Origin: a bacterium
GTDB taxonomy: Bacteria > ARS69
NCBI GenBank assembly: GCA_025774865.1
Contig: JALGZO010000039.1
Span: 1 to 15,385, forward strand
Reading direction: 5' to 3'
Length of the DNA stretch: 15,385 bases
A program made the position numbers and the translations under genes. Numbering within the stretch: the stretch's first letter is position 1; each line of letters begins with the position of its first letter. Under the pieces are notes generated by a model that was given only the letters and a program-made list of their open reading frames with translations, had not been told where the DNA came from and did not search any database. Of this stretch, positions 1 through 15,385 are shown in pieces.

Positions 1-114
1 GAGAACGGCGCGCGGTCGATGATGGTCTCTGTCAATCTGGCTTGTCTGGACATCATGTGCTCCCAGGTCAACTACTTGGGTAACTTCCAGGTGCGAGAGG
101 GGCCCACTCTGTAA
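1..114 (+). CDS. C-terminal fragment of an unidentified protein (partial)
   Basis: The + strand reading frame that is open from base 1 ends at a TAA at 112-114, giving 37 residues that finish NFQVREGPTL. Most codons end in G or C (about 30 of 37), which favours this frame over the competing - strand frame across the same bases; that frame has poor third-position GC. I do not recognise the family. The fragment enters from outside the window and converges on the truncated aceA. Base composition from 1 to about 220 looks less GC-rich than the rest of the window, so this may be foreign DNA or a join made in assembly. It could also be a chance open frame. Confidence 0.3.
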   Translation, partial: ENGARSMMVSVNLACLDIMCSQVNYLGNFQVREGPTL

Positions 115-175
115 CATCGAGTGCAAAGTCGACGGACTTGAGTAGCCGCCAACTCCCGCAGCGAGAGACAGTTAG

Positions 176-592
176 CTAGTATTGCCCAGGATGAGTCGGG
201 GGTTGCCTAGAGCTCCAAGTGTGATCCGGATACATGTGCCCGGCGAGGTTCGCGTCCGCCGCGACCTGCCAACCGGACAGGTAGATGGCCTCGAGCCCGG
301 CCCTCACCATCTGCACGGCTTGATTGCCGGTCAGCGCCCCGAGAGCGTGCACGTAGTCCTTCTCGTGCAGAAGATGCCAGAGACGTTCGGCGCCGAGCTC
401 CGCCAGCGTGTGCCGTACGGTGACGCTGCCGCGGAGCTTCTCCACGTCTTCGAACGTGTAGTCGCGTCTGACACCATCCCACCGACCCGGCATCGTGTCG
501 CTCTTCGACACCCACCCGTTGTCGCCGTTTCCGTTTCCATTTCCGTTTCGAGGAAGATCTCCGTTGGTGCGGGGCTCTTTGCTGCGGCTCAT
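176..592 (-). pseudogene. aceA: Isocitrate lyase, truncated after about 123 residues
   Basis: Isocitrate lyase splits isocitrate into glyoxylate and succinate in the glyoxylate shunt. The first ~123 residues are clearly of this family: [20 protein letters not shown], then [20 protein letters not shown], and [20 protein letters not shown]. Similarity stops abruptly at the codon at 224-226. A further 15 unrelated residues lead to a TAG at 176-178, and no other frame of 1-223 resumes the enzyme. The family is about 430 residues, so all of the catalytic barrel with its KKCGH-type loop is missing. The ATG at 590-592 is preceded by AAGGAG and lies 26 bases after the aceB stop, so the two form an aceB-aceA operon. 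The N-terminus carries an unusual Asn-Gly repeat. Family identity is secure. Whether the truncation is biological (insertion or rearrangement) or an assembly join cannot be told here. Confidence 0.85.
525..548. repeat. Hexanucleotide tandem repeat (4 units) in the aceA 5' coding region
   Basis: Four head-to-tail copies of CCGTTT (the third is CCATTT), read on the + strand. On the coding strand they encode (Asn-Gly)4 in a low-complexity N-terminal extension of isocitrate lyase. Because the unit is six bases, slippage would change the number of NG pairs without shifting frame. Confidence 0.8.
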
Positions 593-618: not shown

Positions 619-2238
619 CTAGAGGTGCTCGTAGGCGATCAGGGTGAGAAAGTCGGCGAGTTCGGACGAGGTGATGAGCTTGCGGAAGATTTCGGCGGCG
701 CACTCGTAGCGGCCGGTGGCGAACCGATCGTCGCCGACCGTTTCGCGGATCCGCGCCATCTCTTCCTGTACGATCCGCTGAACCAGAAAGAGATCACACG
801 CCCTTCCGTCCTCCAGGCGCGCGCCATGGTGGATCCACTGCCAGACCTGAGCCCGAGAGATCTCGGCGGTCGCCGCATCCTCCATCAGATGATAGAGCGG
901 CACACAGCCCGAGCCACGGAGCCACGCCTCCAGATAGAGGATGCCCACGTTGATGTTCTGGCGCAGACCGGCTTCCGTGATGGGTCCTTCCGGAACTTCG
1001 AGCAGGTCGTTCGCCGTGACCCAGACGTCTTCTCGCAGATTCGAGAGCTGGTTCGGAGCGTCCAGGACCGCATCGAACTCGTCGCGCGCGATTTGCATCA
1101 GGCCGGGATGCGCCACCCACGTGCCGTCATGTCCGGCGTGGGCCTCCCGTCGCTTGTCGGCGACCACCTTCTGCAAGGCCGCGGCATTCTTTTCCTCATC
1201 GCCCTTGATCGGGATCTGAGCCGCCATCCCCCCCATCGCGTGCGCACCGCGTCGATGGCACGTACGGATGAGAAGCTCGCTGTAGCTCTCGAGGAAGTGC
1301 TTCTCCATCGTGACGACGCCACGATCCGGCAGTACGAAGCCGGGGTGATTCCGAAACTTCTTGATGAAGCTGAAAATGTAATCCCACCGACCGCAGTTGA
1401 GACCGGTGATGTGTTCGCGCAGCTCCCAGAGGATCTCGTCCATCTCGAACACCGCCAGGATCGTCTCGATCAGTACCGTCGCCTTGATCGTGCCGCGCTC
1501 GATACCGAGGACTTCCTGCGCCGCGAGGAACACCGCGTTCCAGAGACGCGCCTCGCGGTGGTTCTCGAGCTTCGCGAGATAGAAGTACGGACCGGAGCCG
1601 TTTCCGAGGAGGACGTGTGCGTTGTGGAAGAAGTACAGCGCGAAGTCGAAGATGGACGCCGAGACCGGAGCCCCGTCCACGAGCACGTGCTTCTCCACGA
1701 GGTGCCAACCACGCGGACGAACCACGAGCGTCGCTGTCTCGTCGTTCAGCCGATACACCTTGCCCGTCTGCGGGTGGACGTACTCGATCGTCCCCCGGAT
1801 CGCGTCCCGGAGATTGATTTGCCCCTGGATGACGTTCCCCCAAGTCGGTGAGTTCGAGTCCTCGAAGTCCGCCATGAAGACGTTCGCGCCGCTGTTCAGG
1901 GCGTTGATGATCATCTTCCGGTCGACCGGCCCCGTGATCTCGACCCGACGATCCTCGAGGTCCTTCGGAACCGGCGCGATCTGCCAATCGCTCGCCCGGA
2001 TGGCGCTCGTGGCCGGCAGGAAGTCGGGGCGCGCACCGAGATCGAGGGCATCCTGGATGTCGTCTCGCCGACTCAGGAGGAGCTCTCGCATCTCGCGGAA
2101 TCGTCGTTCCAGCCGGCCGACGAACAGCAGCGCTTCGGGGGTGAGAATCTCGGCGTACTCGGGGGTGACGGGCCCGGCGATCTCGAATCCGTCCGGGTAC
2201 CGTCGGTCGGTGGTCAGGGGGACGGCCTGGTTGGTCAT
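619..2238 (-). CDS. aceB: Malate synthase A
   Basis: Condenses glyoxylate with acetyl-CoA to malate, the second step of the glyoxylate shunt, in the cytoplasm. The product is 539 residues, the normal length for the A isoform. Visible motifs are [13 protein letters not shown] (121-133), [14 protein letters not shown] (172-185), LIET (256-259), [14 protein letters not shown] (281-294) and [18 protein letters not shown] (451-468). The residues equivalent to the catalytic Arg/Glu/Asp/Asp of the family are R174, E258, D286 and D454, all present. The ATG at 2236-2238 has a weak purine-rich GAGAG upstream. It is the first gene of an aceB-aceA unit and is transcribed divergently from a RamB/ScfR-type regulator that probably controls it. 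The gene is intact, unlike its downstream partner. Confidence 0.97.
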
Positions 2239-2441: not shown

Positions 2442-3884
2442 ATGGCGAAACAACCGTACCTGGGCAGCAAGATCCGACGTCTCCGGATGGAGGCCGGGTA
2501 TACGCAGGTCCGGCTCGCCCAGAAGCTCGAAATCTCGCCGAGCTACCTCAATCTCATCGAGAAGAATCAGCGCGCGCTGACGGTCCCCTTGCTGCTCAAG
2601 CTCGCCGAGGTCTTCACGCTCGACCTGAAGGCGTTCGCCGAAGACGACGAGGGTCAGCTCGTCGCCGCCTTGAAGGAGATCTTCGGCGATCCCGTCTTCG
2701 CCGATCGTGCGGTGGGAGATCGAGAGATTCGGGAACTCCTCGCTGCGTCCCCCCGAGTCGCCCGGGCCGTCCAGGATCTCTACCGCGCCTACCGCACGGC
2801 GCACGAGGACGCACAAACCCTGGCCGCTCGCATGACCGACGGTGACGGGCTGTTCGGGCTCGAGACGAGCCGGGCCCCATCGGAGGACGTTTCCGCCTTC
2901 ATCCAGTCCAAGATGAACCACTTTCCGCAACTCGAAGACGCCGCCGAGCAGCTCTGGAGAGACGCCCCGCTCGCGCGGAGGGAGCTGGTGCCGCAGCTCA
3001 TCCGCTATCTGAAGGAGACGCTCGGGATCCGGGTGGACGTCGTCCGCAGCGACGATCTGGGCGGGGCGGTCCGCCGATACTCCGTCGCCGAGCGGCGGCT
3101 CCTCCTCTCCGAGGCGTTACCGCGGTGGAGCCTCATGTTTCAGATCGCCCACCAGGTGGGGCTTCTGGCCGCCGACGAGACGATCACGGACATCGTCGAC
3201 CAGGCCTTCTTCACCGGAGAGGAACAGAAGCGGCTCGCGCGAGTCACCCTGGCCAACTACTTCGCCGGGGCCCTGCTCATGCCGTACGGGCCGTTCCTCG
3301 AAGTGGCGCGGTCGGCAAAGTACGACGTGGAAGTGCTCGAGCATCGTTTCCACACGAGTTTCGAGCAGGTGTGCCACCGGCTCACGTCGCTTCACCGTCC
3401 CGGCGCCGCGGGGATCCCGTTTCACATGGTCCGGATCGACATCGCCGGCAATCTCTCGAAGCGCTTCTCGGGCTCCGGCATTCCGTTCGCGCGGTACAGC
3501 GGCGCGTGCCCGCGCTGGAACGTGCACGCCGCTTTCCTTTCCCCCGGTTTCATCCGTACCCAGCTCTCCGAGATGCCCGACGGAAGGCGGTACTTCTCGA
3601 TCGCCCGCACCGTGCGCAAAGCCGGCGGGGGCCACCACGTGGCCCAGAACCGACTCGCCATCGAGCTCGGATGCGAAGCGCAATACGCGCGTCAGCTCGT
3701 GTACGCAGACGGCGTGGACCTGGACAACCGCGCGACGGCCGTACCGGTCGGAGTGAGCTGCCGGTTGTGCGAGCGCATGGACTGCCGGCAGCGGGCGTTC
3801 CCGCCGATGCATCACCGCCTCGACGTCGACGAGAACGTACGAGGGCTGTCCTTCTACTACTCGACGACCAGGAAACGCGGATAG
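2442..3884 (+). CDS. XRE-family regulator, RamB/ScfR/PrpR type (HTH + IrrE-like + DUF2083)
   Basis: DNA-binding regulator of short-chain acyl/acetate metabolism genes; relatives include RamB (represses aceA/aceB) and mycobacterial PrpR. The product is 480 residues, a typical length. An HTH_3 domain covers about residues 8-62 (KIRRLRMEAGYTQVRLAQKL...SYLNLIEKNQR). An IrrE/DUF955-like segment lies at about 160-315, and a DUF2083-type C-terminus at about 320-475. Where a peptidase would have HExxH, this protein has FQIAHQVGLL (233-242), so it is not an active protease. Cysteines at 356, 411, 440, 443 and 448 (GVSCRLCERMDC region) match the conserved cysteine set linked to an Fe-S/acyl-CoA sensor in PrpR. 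The start at 2442 follows GAGGAC. It is divergent from aceB, which strongly suggests local control. Its stop is 17 bases from the convergent Eis-like gene's stop. Confidence 0.92.
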   Translation: MAKQPYLGSKIRRLRMEAGYTQVRLAQKLEISPSYLNLIEKNQRALTVPLLLKLAEVFTLDLKAFAEDDEGQLVAALKEIFGDPVFADRAVGDREIRELLAASPRVARAVQDLYRAYRTAHEDAQTLAARMTDGDGLFGLETSRAPSEDVSAFIQSKMNHFPQLEDAAEQLWRDAPLARRELVPQLIRYLKETLGIRVDVVRSDDLGGAVRRYSVAERRLLLSEALPRWSLMFQIAHQVGLLAADETITDIVDQAFFTGEEQKRLARVTLANYFAGALLMPYGPFLEVARSAKYDVEVLEHRFHTSFEQVCHRLTSLHRPGAAGIPFHMVRIDIAGNLSKRFSGSGIPFARYSGACPRWNVHAAFLSPGFIRTQLSEMPDGRRYFSIARTVRKAGGGHHVAQNRLAIELGCEAQYARQLVYADGVDLDNRATAVPVGVSCRLCERMDCRQRAFPPMHHRLDVDENVRGLSFYYSTTRKRG

Positions 3885-7828: not shown

Positions 7829-9610
7829 TTACGAAGGGCGAGGAACCGCGAGGTGGGCGGATTTCAGACCACGCAGAATCGAGGTCACCCCGCACCCACG
7901 ATCGATGACCCGGACCTCGATCCCGCACGAGCGAGCGGTCTCCCTGACCTCGTTGATCTTGTGCCCGGCGTACCGGACGAGAAGCAGCACGAGATCGACG
8001 GCACCGGAACGAATGGCCGCCTCCGCCGGCTCCTGCTCGCAGGTGTCGCGATAGTATTCGTACCAACGAGCTTCCTTGAGACCGAGACCCTCCTCGATCC
8101 GCCGACGGACTTGCTCGCGCGGCAACCCACCGACGATCGCCACCGTCTTGCCGGACCAGTCGGGCCCGAGCTCTCGGAAGAGCTCCTCGTCCGGGGAGTC
8201 CGCGCGCTCTGACTCGATCAACTCAATCTCGTCGAAGTCGACTCCGCGCTTCGCCAACGACCGGCGCAGCTTCCGGAAGTCCGCTCCGTGGGCCAAAGGC
8301 GCAAACGCGCGGGCGGCCCCGAGGAAATCTTCGCTCTGACAACCGCCCTGATCGACGGCGGCGAGCAGCATCTCCTTCACGTCGTCACGGACGTCGGCGT
8401 CATCCCGCCACTCCGAACCGGCCGCCAGCTCCTGCAGGATTCGAGTGATCTCCCCCAGCCGGGCCTCCGATCGCTCGCGTTCTTCGGCCGATAGTCGCTC
8501 GCGTTCCTCCCGCTCGCGCTCGAGCCGTTCATCCTCCTCGGCATCCAAACGGTCTTGGGTGCGTGCGGCTTCGAGCTTCATCTCCCAGTGGCGAACGTAC
8601 TCGTCCCAGTCGGCGCGGAAGTTCCGGTTGAGCGCGTCGATGAAACCGTGAACGGGGAGCTCCTTGCGAACGCGGTTGATCGCCCCGAACGTGCGATAAA
8701 CTTCCTTGGTGACTCCGTCTTCGAGATTGAAATCGTCTTGGTACCGGCGAAGCCGGCCGAGCCAGATGTGCATCTGGACGTTGATCTCCTCCTCTCCCCG
8801 CTCGCCCAGGTTCGCCACCGCTTCCCGGATCTCGAGCGCCGCCCGCCGGGCCGCTTCGTTCACGGTCCTGCGCTCGTCGCGGTGCCTGATTTCCTGCTCG
8901 AGCGCTCGGCCCCGTTCGGACGCCGCTTCGGCCCCTGACGGGTCCATGCCCTCCAGGCGCGCCGCGAGCGCATTCCAGAACCGGCAGATCGTCGGAAGGT
9001 GGTGAAAACGCCGCCACTCGCGGACCTCACTCTCGAAACGGTCGACGGCCCGGCTGGCCCACAGGACGTCGGGCGGCTCGATCATCGCCAGGATCTCGTC
9101 CACGACCGGATCCATCTCTTCTCGAACGCTCTCATGATCGAGGCGGGAGACGGCGCTTTCCCGGTCGCGCTCCAGGCTCTCGCGCAGTCCTTCGCGCGCT
9201 TCCCTGAGCGCCGGCGCCTGTTGGATGGCTCGGAGTTCCTCGCGATACGCACGAAGATCCTCGATGTGCGCCTCGACCTCACGCCGACCGTCGGCCCCGA
9301 ATTCCCCGAGCTCCTCGAAACCTCGCCGGAGACGCTCGAAGCGGCGGAGCTGCGCCTCCACCATCGCGAGCCGCCCGTGCAAGTCTCGGACCAGCTCATC
9401 GGCGCGCCGCAGGAGGATCGTCAGTTGATCGTCGCGCTCGCGGCGGGAGCGCAGGAGCCTTTCCTGAAGCGACCCGTGGATACCTTCGAAGCCGGACACC
9501 GGTGAGTTCGGGAGACCCTCGTCGAGGAGCGAGCGGAGCGTTCGCGGCGGCGTTTCGACGCGGCGCGGGAGCGGGACAGCCCCCGAGAATGCCACGGACG
9601 GGTCGGTCAT
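7829..9610 (-). CDS. Large coiled-coil protein with C-terminal DUF2325 domain
   Basis: The product is 593 residues, cytoplasmic, with no signal or membrane segment. Residues ~46-170 are strongly helical and charged (RLLRSRRERDDQL; LRRFERLRRGFEEL). Residues ~185-335 form a second helical block. A highly charged coiled coil runs ~340-396 (DERLEREREERERLSAEERE). A short helical segment follows (~400-470), then an acidic linker. The C-terminus (~487-585) fits DUF2325: KTVAIVGGLPREQ, WYEYYRDTCEQ, VDLVLLLVRYAGHKINEVRE, IEVRVIDRGCGVTSILRGL. This looks like a Rossmann-like fold with cysteines at 524, 562 and 573. The function of DUF2325 is not established and I assign none; the shape suggests a structural or signalling protein whose coiled coil oligomerises. 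The ATG at 9608-9610 has CGGAG upstream. It is transcribed alone, divergent from the SRAP gene. Confidence 0.85.
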   Translation of the reverse strand: MTDPSVAFSGAVPLPRRVETPPRTLRSLLDEGLPNSPVSGFEGIHGSLQERLLRSRRERDDQLTILLRRADELVRDLHGRLAMVEAQLRRFERLRRGFEELGEFGADGRREVEAHIEDLRAYREELRAIQQAPALREAREGLRESLERDRESAVSRLDHESVREEMDPVVDEILAMIEPPDVLWASRAVDRFESEVREWRRFHHLPTICRFWNALAARLEGMDPSGAEAASERGRALEQEIRHRDERRTVNEAARRAALEIREAVANLGERGEEEINVQMHIWLGRLRRYQDDFNLEDGVTKEVYRTFGAINRVRKELPVHGFIDALNRNFRADWDEYVRHWEMKLEAARTQDRLDAEEDERLEREREERERLSAEERERSEARLGEITRILQELAAGSEWRDDADVRDDVKEMLLAAVDQGGCQSEDFLGAARAFAPLAHGADFRKLRRSLAKRGVDFDEIELIESERADSPDEELFRELGPDWSGKTVAIVGGLPREQVRRRIEEGLGLKEARWYEYYRDTCEQEPAEAAIRSGAVDLVLLLVRYAGHKINEVRETARSCGIEVRVIDRGCGVTSILRGLKSAHLAVPRPS

Positions 9611-10644: not shown

Positions 10645-10731
10645 GCCCGCCCCCGCCACCTCGCGTAGCGAAACTCCGCCACACGGCGTGTCCACGGCCT
10701 CCCGCGGCCGGTCGTCTGAGCCGAACCAGCC

Positions 10732-10747
10732 TGGCCCGCTGCTTGCT
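10732..10747 (+). promoter_or_regulatory. Candidate sigma-54 (-24/-12) promoter
   Basis: TGGCCCGctgcTTGCT fits the sigma-54 consensus TGGCACGnnnnTTGCW with a single mismatch (C for A). The GG and GC dinucleotides have the required 12-base offset (10733 and 10745). Transcription would start near 10758, leaving a ~32-base leader with the GAGAGG ribosome-binding site of the sigma-54 activator at 10790. If the activator instead starts at GTG 10688, the element would be inside the gene. Confidence 0.42.
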
Positions 10748-10789
10748 GCTCACGGCCCCTCCTTCCGGTCTCCCGCACCGAGAGGCAGC

Positions 10790-11938
10790 TTGTCGACCGA
10801 TCCGCACATTTCCGAGGCTCGGCTGGAGCCGTTCGATCTCGACGCGATGCCCTCGCCCGAGAACACACCACTCGCCGGCCCCACGCTCGCGATCCGTTGG
10901 TGCTCCCCCGCTTACGTCCGAGCCCTGTCCCGTCTTCGCAAGTTCGCTCGCACGTCGCATCCCCTTCTGATCACCGGTGAGACGGGCGCTGGCAAGACGT
11001 CGTTCGCGGAGATCGTCCACGTGGAGGGGCGGCATCCGTCGGAACCGTTCGTCGCCGTGAACTGTCCGGCCCTTCCGGAGGCGCTGCTCGAATCCGAGCT
11101 CTTCGGGCACGTGCGCGGAGCGTTCACCGGCGCGGAATCGGAAAAGTCGGGGCTCATTCGTGCCGCGCGCTCCGGCACCGTCTTCCTCGACGAGATCGAC
11201 AAGGCATCGCCGTCACTGCAAGCGGCGCTACTCCAGGTGCTCGATCGGCGCGAAGTCCGATCCGTCGGTGGTCACGCACCGCACCGCGTACCGGCGCGGC
11301 TCGTGTTCGCGAGTAACCGACACCTCCCCACCGCCGCCGCGCGTGGCGAGTTCCTCCCGGATCTCGTGTATCGGATCGCCGGGATGTCGGTACGCATCCC
11401 TCCGCTGCGGGAACGCCCGGAGGACCTCGACCTTCTCGTGGCGCTGGCGCTGCGCACGATCCGCCGGGATGACGGACTCGCCGGGGTGACCGTGACACCC
11501 CCGGCGCTCGATCTCGTCGCGTCGTACGACTGGCCGGGGAACGTGCGGGAGCTCTTCAGCGTCCTGAGAGTGGCGGCCCATCTTCTCGACGGCGGTACGC
11601 GGATCAGCGCTCGCGAGATCGAGCTCGCCGCCGGGTCGCGGCTCGAGACCCACGTACGTCGCGCGCGGTCCCGCGCGGCCCTCGGCGAGCGGATGCGTGA
11701 GTTCGAGAAACAAGAGATCCTCGTGGCGCTACGCCTCGAAGGCGGTAACCAGACGAAGGCGGCGAGCCGACTCGGCTTGAGCCGCCGCGGCCTGAACAAG
11801 AAGCTGCACCGGCACGAGCTCCTGGATCAGCTCGAGCGCGAAGGCCTTCGGGCGTTTCGCTCCCGGCGGCCGGTCCCGGCCCGGGCCCCCTCCCTGTCGA
11901 TGAATCCTCGAACCGGTGGTAGGTTCACCGCATCCTGA
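10790..11938 (+). CDS. Sigma-54-dependent transcription activator without sensor domain (PspF-like)
   Basis: AAA+ bacterial enhancer-binding protein that remodels sigma-54 RNA polymerase. From the TTG at 10790 the product is 382 residues. It has Walker A GETGAGKT (63-70), a complete sigma-54-contacting GAFTGA loop (110-115) and Walker B GTVFLDEI (129-136). YDWPGNVREL lies at the end of the AAA+ domain, and a C-terminal Fis-type helix-turn-helix follows (NQTKAASRLGLSRRGLNKKL, ~320-339). Only ~35 residues precede the AAA+ domain, so there is no receiver, GAF or PAS sensor; activity may be set by a partner, as for PspF. An in-frame GTG at 10688 would add 34 Ser/Pro-rich residues. I prefer the TTG because GAGAGGCAGC directly before it is identical to the 10 bases before the gnd start, and a sigma-54-type element lies upstream. 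It sits 42 bases before gnd, on the same strand. Its targets are unknown. Confidence 0.88.
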   Translation: MSTDPHISEARLEPFDLDAMPSPENTPLAGPTLAIRWCSPAYVRALSRLRKFARTSHPLLITGETGAGKTSFAEIVHVEGRHPSEPFVAVNCPALPEALLESELFGHVRGAFTGAESEKSGLIRAARSGTVFLDEIDKASPSLQAALLQVLDRREVRSVGGHAPHRVPARLVFASNRHLPTAAARGEFLPDLVYRIAGMSVRIPPLRERPEDLDLLVALALRTIRRDDGLAGVTVTPPALDLVASYDWPGNVRELFSVLRVAAHLLDGGTRISAREIELAAGSRLETHVRRARSRAALGERMREFEKQEILVALRLEGGNQTKAASRLGLSRRGLNKKLHRHELLDQLEREGLRAFRSRRPVPARAPSLSMNPRTGGRFTAS

Positions 11939-11980
11939 GAGCGGGTCCCGGTGGCCCGCTTCCCAATGCGGAGAGGCAGC

Positions 11981-12892
11981 ATGGAACTCGGAATGATCGG
12001 TCTCGGGCGGATGGGCGCGAACATGACGAAGCGGCTCGTTGCGGGTGGGCACCGGGTTGTCGCTCACGACCGCAGCCCCGACGCCGTTCAGGCCGCGGCC
12101 GCGGACGGCGCGACGGCCGCAAGCTCCCTCGACGAGTTGAAAGAGAAGCTCGCACCACCCCGTGCCGTATGGGTGATGGTCCCCGCCGGAGCGCCCACGG
12201 AGCAGACGATCTCCGCACTCGCGGATCGGCTCGACGCGGGCGATCTCGTCATCGACGGCGGCAACAGCAACTATCGCGAGACCGTGCGTCGCGGCGCGCT
12301 CTTGGCGGAGACCGGCGTCGACCTGCTGGACTGCGGCACGTCGGGCGGCGTCTGGGGACTCGAGGAAGGATACTGCCTCATGATCGGCGGCCCGAAGGGT
12401 GCCGTGGATCGAGTCACATCCATCTTCGAGACGCTCGCGCCCGAGGCGGATCGCGGGTGGGCGCACGTGGGTCCCGTGGGGGCCGGCCACTACGTCAAGA
12501 TGATCCACAACGGCATCGAGTACGGAATGATGCAGGCGCTCGCCGAGGGCTTCGCGATTCTCGAGAAGAAAGAGGAGTTCGGCCTCGATCTCGCAAACGT
12601 CGCGGAGCTCTGGCGGCACGGGAGCGTCGTTCGCTCGTGGTTGCTCGATCTGACGGCGCGGGCGCTCGAGGAAAACCCCCAGCTCGACGGCATCGCGCCG
12701 TGGGTGTCGGACTCGGGCGAAGGGCGCTGGACCGTGTTCGAGGCGGTCGACCTCGACGTTCCGGCGCCCGTCATCACGCACTCACTGCTCGCGCGGTTGC
12801 GCTCGCGTAGCGACGACTCGTTCTCCGACAAGCTCCTCGCCGCGATGCGGAATCAATTCGGCGGACACGCCATCAAGCAGACCGTGTCATGA
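11981..12892 (+). CDS. gnd: 6-phosphogluconate dehydrogenase, decarboxylating (short GndA-like form)
   Basis: Oxidatively decarboxylates 6-phosphogluconate to ribulose-5-phosphate, the third step of the oxidative pentose phosphate pathway. The product is 303 residues, the short form of ~300 rather than the ~470-residue form; short forms are often NAD-preferring, which is inference here. Visible motifs are the Rossmann GLGRMGANM (7-15), LVIDGGNSNYRE (89-100), DCGTSGGVWGLEEGYCLMIGG (117-137) and HYVKMIHNGIEYGMMQALAEG (170-190) with catalytic Lys173 and Asn177. The ATG at 11981 follows GGAGAGG. The stop overlaps the zwf ATG (ATGA). First gene of gnd-zwf-pgl. Confidence 0.95.
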   Translation: MELGMIGLGRMGANMTKRLVAGGHRVVAHDRSPDAVQAAAADGATAASSLDELKEKLAPPRAVWVMVPAGAPTEQTISALADRLDAGDLVIDGGNSNYRETVRRGALLAETGVDLLDCGTSGGVWGLEEGYCLMIGGPKGAVDRVTSIFETLAPEADRGWAHVGPVGAGHYVKMIHNGIEYGMMQALAEGFAILEKKEEFGLDLANVAELWRHGSVVRSWLLDLTARALEENPQLDGIAPWVSDSGEGRWTVFEAVDLDVPAPVITHSLLARLRSRSDDSFSDKLLAAMRNQFGGHAIKQTVS

Positions 12893-14355
12893 CCCTCAAG
12901 CGAGTCGAACCGAGCGTCTTCGTCATCCTCGGGGCGACGGGGGATCTCACGAAGCGAAAGCTCGTGCCGGCGCTGTTCCGATTGCGGAAGTACGTCGATC
13001 CGGGAACCCGGACCTTCGTCCTCGGAGTCGGGCGCAAACCCGAACTCGACGATGATGCGTTTCGCGCCTGGCTGAAGGAGGCGGTGGCGGAGACGGGCGA
13101 GGCCGAAGACGGGATCGACCAGTGGATCGACCAGCACGTCCGGTATCACTGCATGGAGGAAACGGACGTGTCCAGTTGCCGTAGCCTCGGGGAGCGGCTA
13201 GGGGCGCTCGAAGAAGAGCAGGACCTGCCGGGCAATCGATCGTTCTACCTGAGTCTCCCGCCGTCTCGGTTCGTCCCGACGATCGAGGCGCTCGGAGAGA
13301 GCGGCCTGGCGCAGTCGCCGGGCTGGACGCACCTCGTCGTCGAGAAGCCGTTCGGCCGCGATCTCGCGTCGGCGCAGGCCCTCAACCGCACGGTCCACCG
13401 CTGGTACGACGAATCGCAGATCTACCGGATCGACCACTACCTCGGAAAGGAGACGGTGCAGAACCTTCTCGTCTTCCGGCTCGCGAACGCGATCTTCGAG
13501 TCACTTTGGAATCGCAGCCACGTCGAGAGCGTGCAGATCCTCGTCGCCGAAGAGCTCGGGGTGGAAACGCGAGCCGGCTACTACGACAAGACGGGAGCTC
13601 TGCGCGACATGGTCCAAAATCACCTCGCGCAGCTCGTATCTCTGGTCGCGATGGAGGTCCCGGCTACCATCGACGCCGAGTCGATCCGGTACGAGAAGAT
13701 CAAGGTGCTCCGATCGATGTCCACGCCGAGCGCGACGGACGTCGTCTTCGGTCAGTACGGACCCGGCGAGAACGGCAGCGGTCCGGACGCCGGCTACCTC
13801 GACGAACCCGGTGTCGGGGTGGCCTCGACGACCGAGACGTACGTATCCCTCCGTCTCGCCGTCGACAGCTGGCGCTGGCAAGGCGTCCCCTTCTACGTGC
13901 GCACCGGCAAGCGCCTCCCGAAGCGGCTGACCCAGATCGCGGTGACGTTCCGGCAACCGCCGGTCTGCTTGTTCGAATCGATGGGCTCGTGCCTGCTGCA
14001 CTCGAACGTGCTGCTCATCACGTTGCAACCCGACGAAGGCTTTGCGCTGTACTTCGACGTCAAGGCGCCGGGCGAACCGCTCGACTTGCGGACACTGCCG
14101 CTCTCGTTCCGGTACGAGGACGCGTTCGAGAAGATTCCCGACGCCTACGAGACGCTCTTGCGCGACATCCTGGAGGGAGACCAGACTCTGTTCGTCCACT
14201 CCGACGAGGTCGAAGCTTCCTGGAAGTTGTTCGAGCCACTCCTCGGCGGAGATCGGGAAGTGCACCGCTATCCCGCGGGCTCCTGGGGGCCGGAGGAGGC
14301 CACGCGCCATTTCGTCCGCGGCGCCCCGGAGACGTTGCAGCCGGCATCCGGATGA
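12889..14355 (+). CDS. zwf: Glucose-6-phosphate 1-dehydrogenase
   Basis: Oxidises glucose-6-phosphate to 6-phosphogluconolactone, making NADPH; first step of the oxidative pentose phosphate pathway. The product is 488 residues, a normal length. It has the cofactor motif LGATGDLTKRKL (14-25), EKPFGRD (152-158) and the substrate-binding RIDHYLGKETVQN (180-192) with Asp182/His183. LRDMVQNHLAQL (238-249) carries His245, equivalent to the catalytic histidine of the Leuconostoc enzyme. PFYVRTGKRL (near residue 330) is also present. The ATG overlaps the gnd stop and the stop overlaps the pgl ATG, both as ATGA, so the three proteins are translationally coupled. Confidence 0.98.
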   Translation: MTLKRVEPSVFVILGATGDLTKRKLVPALFRLRKYVDPGTRTFVLGVGRKPELDDDAFRAWLKEAVAETGEAEDGIDQWIDQHVRYHCMEETDVSSCRSLGERLGALEEEQDLPGNRSFYLSLPPSRFVPTIEALGESGLAQSPGWTHLVVEKPFGRDLASAQALNRTVHRWYDESQIYRIDHYLGKETVQNLLVFRLANAIFESLWNRSHVESVQILVAEELGVETRAGYYDKTGALRDMVQNHLAQLVSLVAMEVPATIDAESIRYEKIKVLRSMSTPSATDVVFGQYGPGENGSGPDAGYLDEPGVGVASTTETYVSLRLAVDSWRWQGVPFYVRTGKRLPKRLTQIAVTFRQPPVCLFESMGSCLLHSNVLLITLQPDEGFALYFDVKAPGEPLDLRTLPLSFRYEDAFEKIPDAYETLLRDILEGDQTLFVHSDEVEASWKLFEPLLGGDREVHRYPAGSWGPEEATRHFVRGAPETLQPASG

Positions 14356-15065
14356 CCGCGATCGTCGTCGAACATCGCGTGCTCGCCGATCCCGAGGCGG
14401 TCGCACTCGAGGCGCGACAGGAAGTCGTCGCGGCGGCGGGGGCCGCGGACGAGACCGGGCGACCACTCGTGCTCGTTCTGTCGGGCGGCCGCACCCCGCA
14501 GCGCCTCTACGAGCACCTCGCCGAGGAGGATCGAATCGACTGGAGTCGCGTTCACTTCCTCTGGGGTGACGAGCGCTGCGTGCCCCCGGATCACCCCGCG
14601 AGCAACTACCGTCTCGCGCACGAAGCGCTGATCTCGCGGATCGACGTTCCCGAGCGTCACGTCCACCGGATGCGCGGCGAAGATCCCGATCCGGACACCG
14701 CCGCCCGCGCGTACGAGGAGGAGCTCGCCGGCGTCGGCGCTCCCGACCTGGTTCTCCTCGGGCTCGGTGCCGACGGCCACACCGCCTCCCTCTTCCCCGG
14801 CTCGGTCGCCCTGGAGGAATCGTCACGGCTCGTCGTTCCGGCCCGCGCTCCGGCCGGGGCCGACCCCGTCGATCGACTGACCGTCACGTTCGCGGCCCTC
14901 GGCCGCGCCCGGCGGGTTCTCTTCCTCGTCACCGGTTCGGACAAGCGGGACGCCCTCACGGCCATCCGCGAGGACCCGCCGGCCGCCGCCGACCGCTTCC
15001 CCGCCGCCCGGGTTCGACCCCGGGAGTCGATTCTCTGGATTGCGGATCGCGCCGCCGGGACGTGA
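14352..15065 (+). CDS. pgl: 6-phosphogluconolactonase (DevB type)
   Basis: Hydrolyses 6-phosphogluconolactone to 6-phosphogluconate, the second step of the oxidative pentose phosphate pathway. The product is 237 residues, typical for the DevB/glucosamine-6-phosphate isomerase-like fold. Motifs are LVLSGGRTPQRLYEHL (41-56), VHFLWGDERCVP (67-78) and LLGLGADGHTASLFPG (135-150). This last one is the family signature, with catalytic His143. The start overlaps the zwf stop (ATGA). It is the last gene of the operon; no clear terminator follows, only a short GCGCC/GGCGC hairpin at 15127-15140 without a T run. Confidence 0.97.
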   Translation: MTAIVVEHRVLADPEAVALEARQEVVAAAGAADETGRPLVLVLSGGRTPQRLYEHLAEEDRIDWSRVHFLWGDERCVPPDHPASNYRLAHEALISRIDVPERHVHRMRGEDPDPDTAARAYEEELAGVGAPDLVLLGLGADGHTASLFPGSVALEESSRLVVPARAPAGADPVDRLTVTFAALGRARRVLFLVTGSDKRDALTAIREDPPAAADRFPAARVRPRESILWIADRAAGT

Positions 15066-15178: not shown

Positions 15179-15385
15179 ATGAAGATGAACGCGTGGATCC
15201 CGTTTCTCGTGCTCCTGCTCGCCCTCGGAACGCCGGGACTGTCCCGGGCCGACGACGAGCACCCCGAGCACCCCGAGCATCCCGAGGAAGCCGAACACAA
15301 GGAGCACCCGGAGCATCCAGAAGGCCACGCCGAGGTCACGATCGAGCAACTCGGCGACGCGATCGAAGCCTGGGTCGCCTGGGAC
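15179..15385 (+). CDS. Secreted His-Pro-Glu-rich protein (partial, runs off the window)
   Basis: The first 69 residues are visible. A signal peptide (MKMNAWIPFLVLLLALG, cut around SRA|DDE) is followed by repeats of (E)HPE: EHPEHPEHPEEAEHKEHPEH. The next part, EVTIEQLGDAIEAWVAWD, looks helical. The histidine and glutamate clusters could bind metal ions in the periplasm, but that is inference, and I recognise no named family. AGGAG lies 8 bases before the ATG at 15179. It is separated from pgl by 113 bases, so it is probably a separate transcription unit. Confidence 0.75.
   Translation, partial: MKMNAWIPFLVLLLALGTPGLSRADDEHPEHPEHPEEAEHKEHPEHPEGHAEVTIEQLGDAIEAWVAWD

Follow-up and report, generated by a model that had tools for sequence, protein, structure and literature searches.

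Is the isocitrate lyase gene of this bacterium broken in the cell, or only in the assembled sequence? The window, which is the whole of contig C39 (15,385 bases), belongs to a binned draft genome with 785 contigs and a size of 4.72 Mb, a completeness of 92.65% and a contamination estimate of 8.3%. At 221 bases from the left end of the window, aceA departs abruptly from its family. A preliminary description offered two accounts, a mobile element or rearrangement that had broken the glyoxylate shunt, or two unrelated fragments joined in assembly. The assembly account has gained, with the other half of the gene found in frame on a second contig behind a word common to both, and the mobile element has lost ground, there being no sign of one. 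Our preferred reading, to which we give a probability of about 0.8, is that assembly or library preparation produced a reciprocal chimeric join at a 24-bp match, and that the gene is not broken. The feature is present in the assembly file but almost certainly absent from the organism.

Two halves of aceA on two contigs

The surroundings of the break are ordinary. An intact aceB for malate synthase A (619..2238, minus strand; TIGR01344 at 826 bits, with agreement from Pfam and relatives) lies directly upstream of aceA, as it does in the relatives G002 and G004. Divergent from aceBA is a regulator gene (2442..3884, plus strand) of the HTH/IrrE-like, ScfR type, from the short-chain fatty acyl-CoA regulator family (PF09856, PF06114, PF01381), and a cluster of aceB, aceA and such a regulator is an ordinary one.

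The window holds the N-terminal 123 codons of aceA and two bases of the next (222..592, minus strand). The minus-strand frame 703-176 matches the isocitrate lyase profile PF00463 over profile positions 12-95 and then loses it; in the whole-genome profile search the same fragment appears as C39:224-487, profile positions 12-101. The score of this half is 36 bits, against a Pfam cut-off of 26. The last codon to match the family is the Asp codon at 224-226, although bases 222-223 (CA-) still agree with the Gln codon found at this place on the second contig and in relatives. Past the break the frame continues for about 15 codons, unrelated to the family, before it stops at 176-178, and the enzyme is not taken up again in any frame of 1-221. 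The preliminary description had the Asp codon as the last of the family, the stop at 176 and the lack of any continuation to the left, all of which hold. It had also drawn a sharp junction at 223/224; the break is indeed abrupt, but instead of a single point there is a 24-bp word at 222-245 that recurs on the second contig.

That description had further asked whether the missing ~300 codons lie elsewhere in the genome. They do: contig C125, from the same bin, supplies the ~320 codons that the window lacks. The isocitrate lyase search of the genome matched C125 at profile positions 143-254 and 353-526, and contig C24 also matched. The lyase part of C125 begins exactly where the window copy ends; its frame starts with AGHMYPDQ and runs for 326 codons to a stop at 1665 on the plus strand. 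This half scores 619 bits, against a cut-off of 562 for NF011645, and covers positions 102-428 of the 430 in that model. It includes the KKCGH catalytic loop, as SEKKCGHLGG, a motif that, given its place in the enzyme, is not expected in the window half and is not found there. Upstream of the lyase frame, C125:1-683 (flank X) is not lyase sequence. Its bases 1-494 are the end of an FlgD-Ig/secretion-tail gene, a type that recurs across the genome with several DNA matches of 70-75%.

With a family match above the cut-off in both halves, 442 codons when joined and the active-site motif on C125, aceA is almost certainly intact in the organism. The gene order and families are those of an ordinary aceB-aceA glyoxylate-shunt operon (AceA of NF011645/TIGR01346, malate synthase A of TIGR01344), and the joined 442-residue AceA is full length with KKCGH; the difference is that here the operon is split over two contigs of a draft. 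The earlier claim, that malate synthase and the regulator are kept while this lyase is missing, is unsupported, given that both halves are present and that C24 carries a second lyase locus. The latter encodes a long-type isocitrate lyase (TIGR01346, 418 bits) beside a malate synthase-like gene that scores 230 bits with TIGR01344, below the cut-off. On the minus strand of C24:2-3894 this divergent malate synthase-like gene comes first, and the long-type lyase then reaches the contig end. This second glyoxylate-shunt locus may be the organism's own or may be contamination.

The shared word and the fit of the halves

How closely do the two halves fit? C39 and C125 have exactly 24 bp in common at the point where the lyase sequence breaks off. 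This word, CGCCGGGCACATGTATCCGGATCA, encodes AGHMYPD plus CA; it lies at 222-245 of the window on the minus strand, at the site of the join, and exactly at C125:684-707 on the plus strand. A search of the readable genome that allowed up to 3 mismatches gave these two copies and no others. When the halves are joined over the word they form one open frame without an internal stop, and against intact aceA from other bacteria they match contiguously, overlapping only in the 7 shared codons. The closest relative for the C-terminal half is G004 (89%), which is also among the closest for the N-terminal half (82%); there aceB-aceA continues uninterrupted through the break point up to a contig end. In G002, aceA is likewise an uninterrupted frame, of 480 codons. 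The two contigs thus show directly both halves and the common word, their fit in frame, and outer flanks that are unrelated.

Could the shared word be a coincidence? A 24-bp match between this particular pair of contigs would be expected by chance with a probability of ~2e-5 (2 x 6038 x 15385 x 1.3e-13, the last being the match probability), and the breaks in the two contigs must therefore be linked. Unrelated flanks on opposite sides of the same word are the signature of a reciprocal crossing. For a whole genome the expectation is quite different: about 2-3 shared 24-bp words are expected by chance in 4.72 Mb of the same composition, and more in a metagenome, so that the crossing point itself needs no biological cause.

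The tail at the contig end

The first 221 bases of the window (tail Y, 1..221) are DNA unrelated to aceA. Their GC content of 0.566 compares with a genome mean of 0.663 for 221-base stretches (sd 0.037) and falls at about the 0.5th percentile, as the preliminary description had sensed in calling this flank less GC-rich. The plus-strand reading frame that it had placed here, ending at 112-114, is also present: positions 1-114 are the last 37 codons of a frame that is open to the contig end, with GC of 0.54/0.38/0.81 at the three codon positions, like a real gene end. The product has no recognisable relative, and no protein match was found among 144 other genomes.

Several identities for the tail were considered. 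No convincing match emerged from the organism's own genome, its relatives, phages, plasmids, Pfam, PHROGs, NCBIfam, Rfam or PDB. The end of an insertion sequence, or phage or plasmid DNA, was rejected, the only DNA or protein match being a weak one to a phage at E = 7; patterns made from a 26-mer of the tail and from the 24-mer were absent from viral contigs. A structured RNA found no match in Rfam. A genome repeat was set aside as well, the tail being single copy in its own genome, and the search that the preliminary description had proposed for further copies of this flank found none there. Nor is it host DNA common to relatives: 59 other genomes gave no convincing match at the DNA level. 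Considering its low GC, the tail may belong to another organism rather than to the host. Aberrant contig ends are not a general fault of this assembly, as the GC of 134 other sampled ends is no different from that of contig interiors.

A chimeric join weighed against events in the cell

A reciprocal chimeric join would have arisen as follows. The organism would carry an ordinary aceB-aceA operon, and another locus, with X on one side and Y on the other, would by chance have the 24-bp word in common with aceA. Assembly would have crossed the two paths at the word, or template switching would have done so while the library was prepared. Two wrong contigs would result, C39 with the N-terminal half of aceA, the 24 bp and Y, and C125 with X, the 24 bp and the C-terminal half. 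We infer that X and Y come from one other locus, and that the crossing arose in the data rather than in the cell. A chimera of this kind is favored by the finding of a short common word at the join and of the complementary pieces on a second contig, by a tail of only 221 bases with atypical GC at a contig end, and by the fragmented state of the draft with its contamination estimate.

A simple error in the assembly graph, however, is harder to reconcile with the overlaps between contigs. The right ends of C39 and C406 are identical over exactly 114 bp (window 15272-15385 and C406 8476-8589), and C406 probably continues the window there; the start of C760 (1-114) is repeated exactly within the same contig, at 16420-16533. 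These 114-bp overlaps suggest that the final de Bruijn graph was built with a large k, and such a graph should not be misled by a 24-bp match alone. An early step with small k, a local assembly or a chimeric library molecule would therefore be needed. In the readable bin, where those sampled contigs that fall below about 3 kb are given as N, there is neither a contig with intact aceA nor one with X and Y on the two sides of the word.

The main rival is a real element inserted into aceA between 24-bp direct repeats, either a target-site duplication or an attL/attR core, with Y as its left end, X as its right end and aceA inactive. The topology is what a 24-bp duplication predicts, N-terminal half, word and Y at one end and X, word and C-terminal half at the other, the word being identical and oriented alike in both, and the atypical GC of Y is also in accord. 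We nevertheless consider such an insertion unlikely. X and Y do not behave as the ends of one element with terminal repeats: the best inverted match of 60 against 60 bases scores 7, while shuffled sequences average 7.3 (P = 0.71). No transposase or integrase is encoded in the 221 and 683 readable bases of Y and X, beyond which the interior of an element would lie. X is the end of an FlgD-Ig/secretion-tail gene with host-genome GC and with host-like paralogues elsewhere in the bin, and Y is without the phage, plasmid or viral-contig matches that a mobile element might show. As for an attachment site, Y does not continue aceA, and no integrase is found in X or Y, more distant parts again lying beyond the contigs. 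Mid-gene insertion without restoring the gene is atypical of tyrosine recombinases, which also counts against an insertion. A more elaborate version, in which a mobile or integrative element uses the AGHMYPD-coding stretch as its integration site, leaves the 24-bp direct repeat, turns the classical lyase off and relies on the second lyase as a backup, is about half as credible.

A real inversion or translocation in the cell, exchanging the flanks of aceA with those of another locus at the 24-bp word, is very improbable, though a shade less so than that elaborate version. The reciprocal structure would fit, and chance 24-bp repeats are expected a few times in a genome of this size, but a conserved operon would have been disrupted at a chance microhomology, G002 and G004 keep the uninterrupted order, and the composition of Y is a poor fit to the host. 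Least probable of all is that the halves come from different organisms of the metagenome, each misjoined or truncated independently. The estimated contamination of the bin leaves room for this, and the AGHMYPDQ surroundings are conserved among aceA genes, the closest homologous sites to the word differing by 3-5 mismatches. Against it, both halves fit the aceA of G004 in register, the tetranucleotide profiles of C39 (0.994) and C125 (0.983) both fit the bin, and the exact coincidence of breakpoints, so improbable for this pair, would need explaining.

The preferred chimeric join resembles other chimeric contigs of draft metagenome assemblies in its abrupt change of content near a contig end, its short common word and its fragmented bin. 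It differs from the usual case in that the reciprocal partner is in the same bin, which makes the crossing point directly readable. Read so, the break does not lead to the mistaken conclusion that a poorly sampled lineage has a broken glyoxylate shunt. The case also shows that a contig of this draft genome can end in a few hundred foreign bases, which should be trimmed off before annotation.

Two further regions of the window may be recorded. A 593-residue protein encoded at 7829-9610, perhaps coiled-coil as judged by eye, has a C-terminus with a weak match to DUF2325, below the cut-off, and no other identification. The run at 10688-15065 is a pentose-phosphate cluster, with a sigma-54-type activator bearing a Fis-type helix-turn-helix, a 6-phosphogluconate dehydrogenase-like gene and glucose-6-phosphate dehydrogenase; the open frame downstream in this run, ending at 15065, looks by eye like 6-phosphogluconolactonase.
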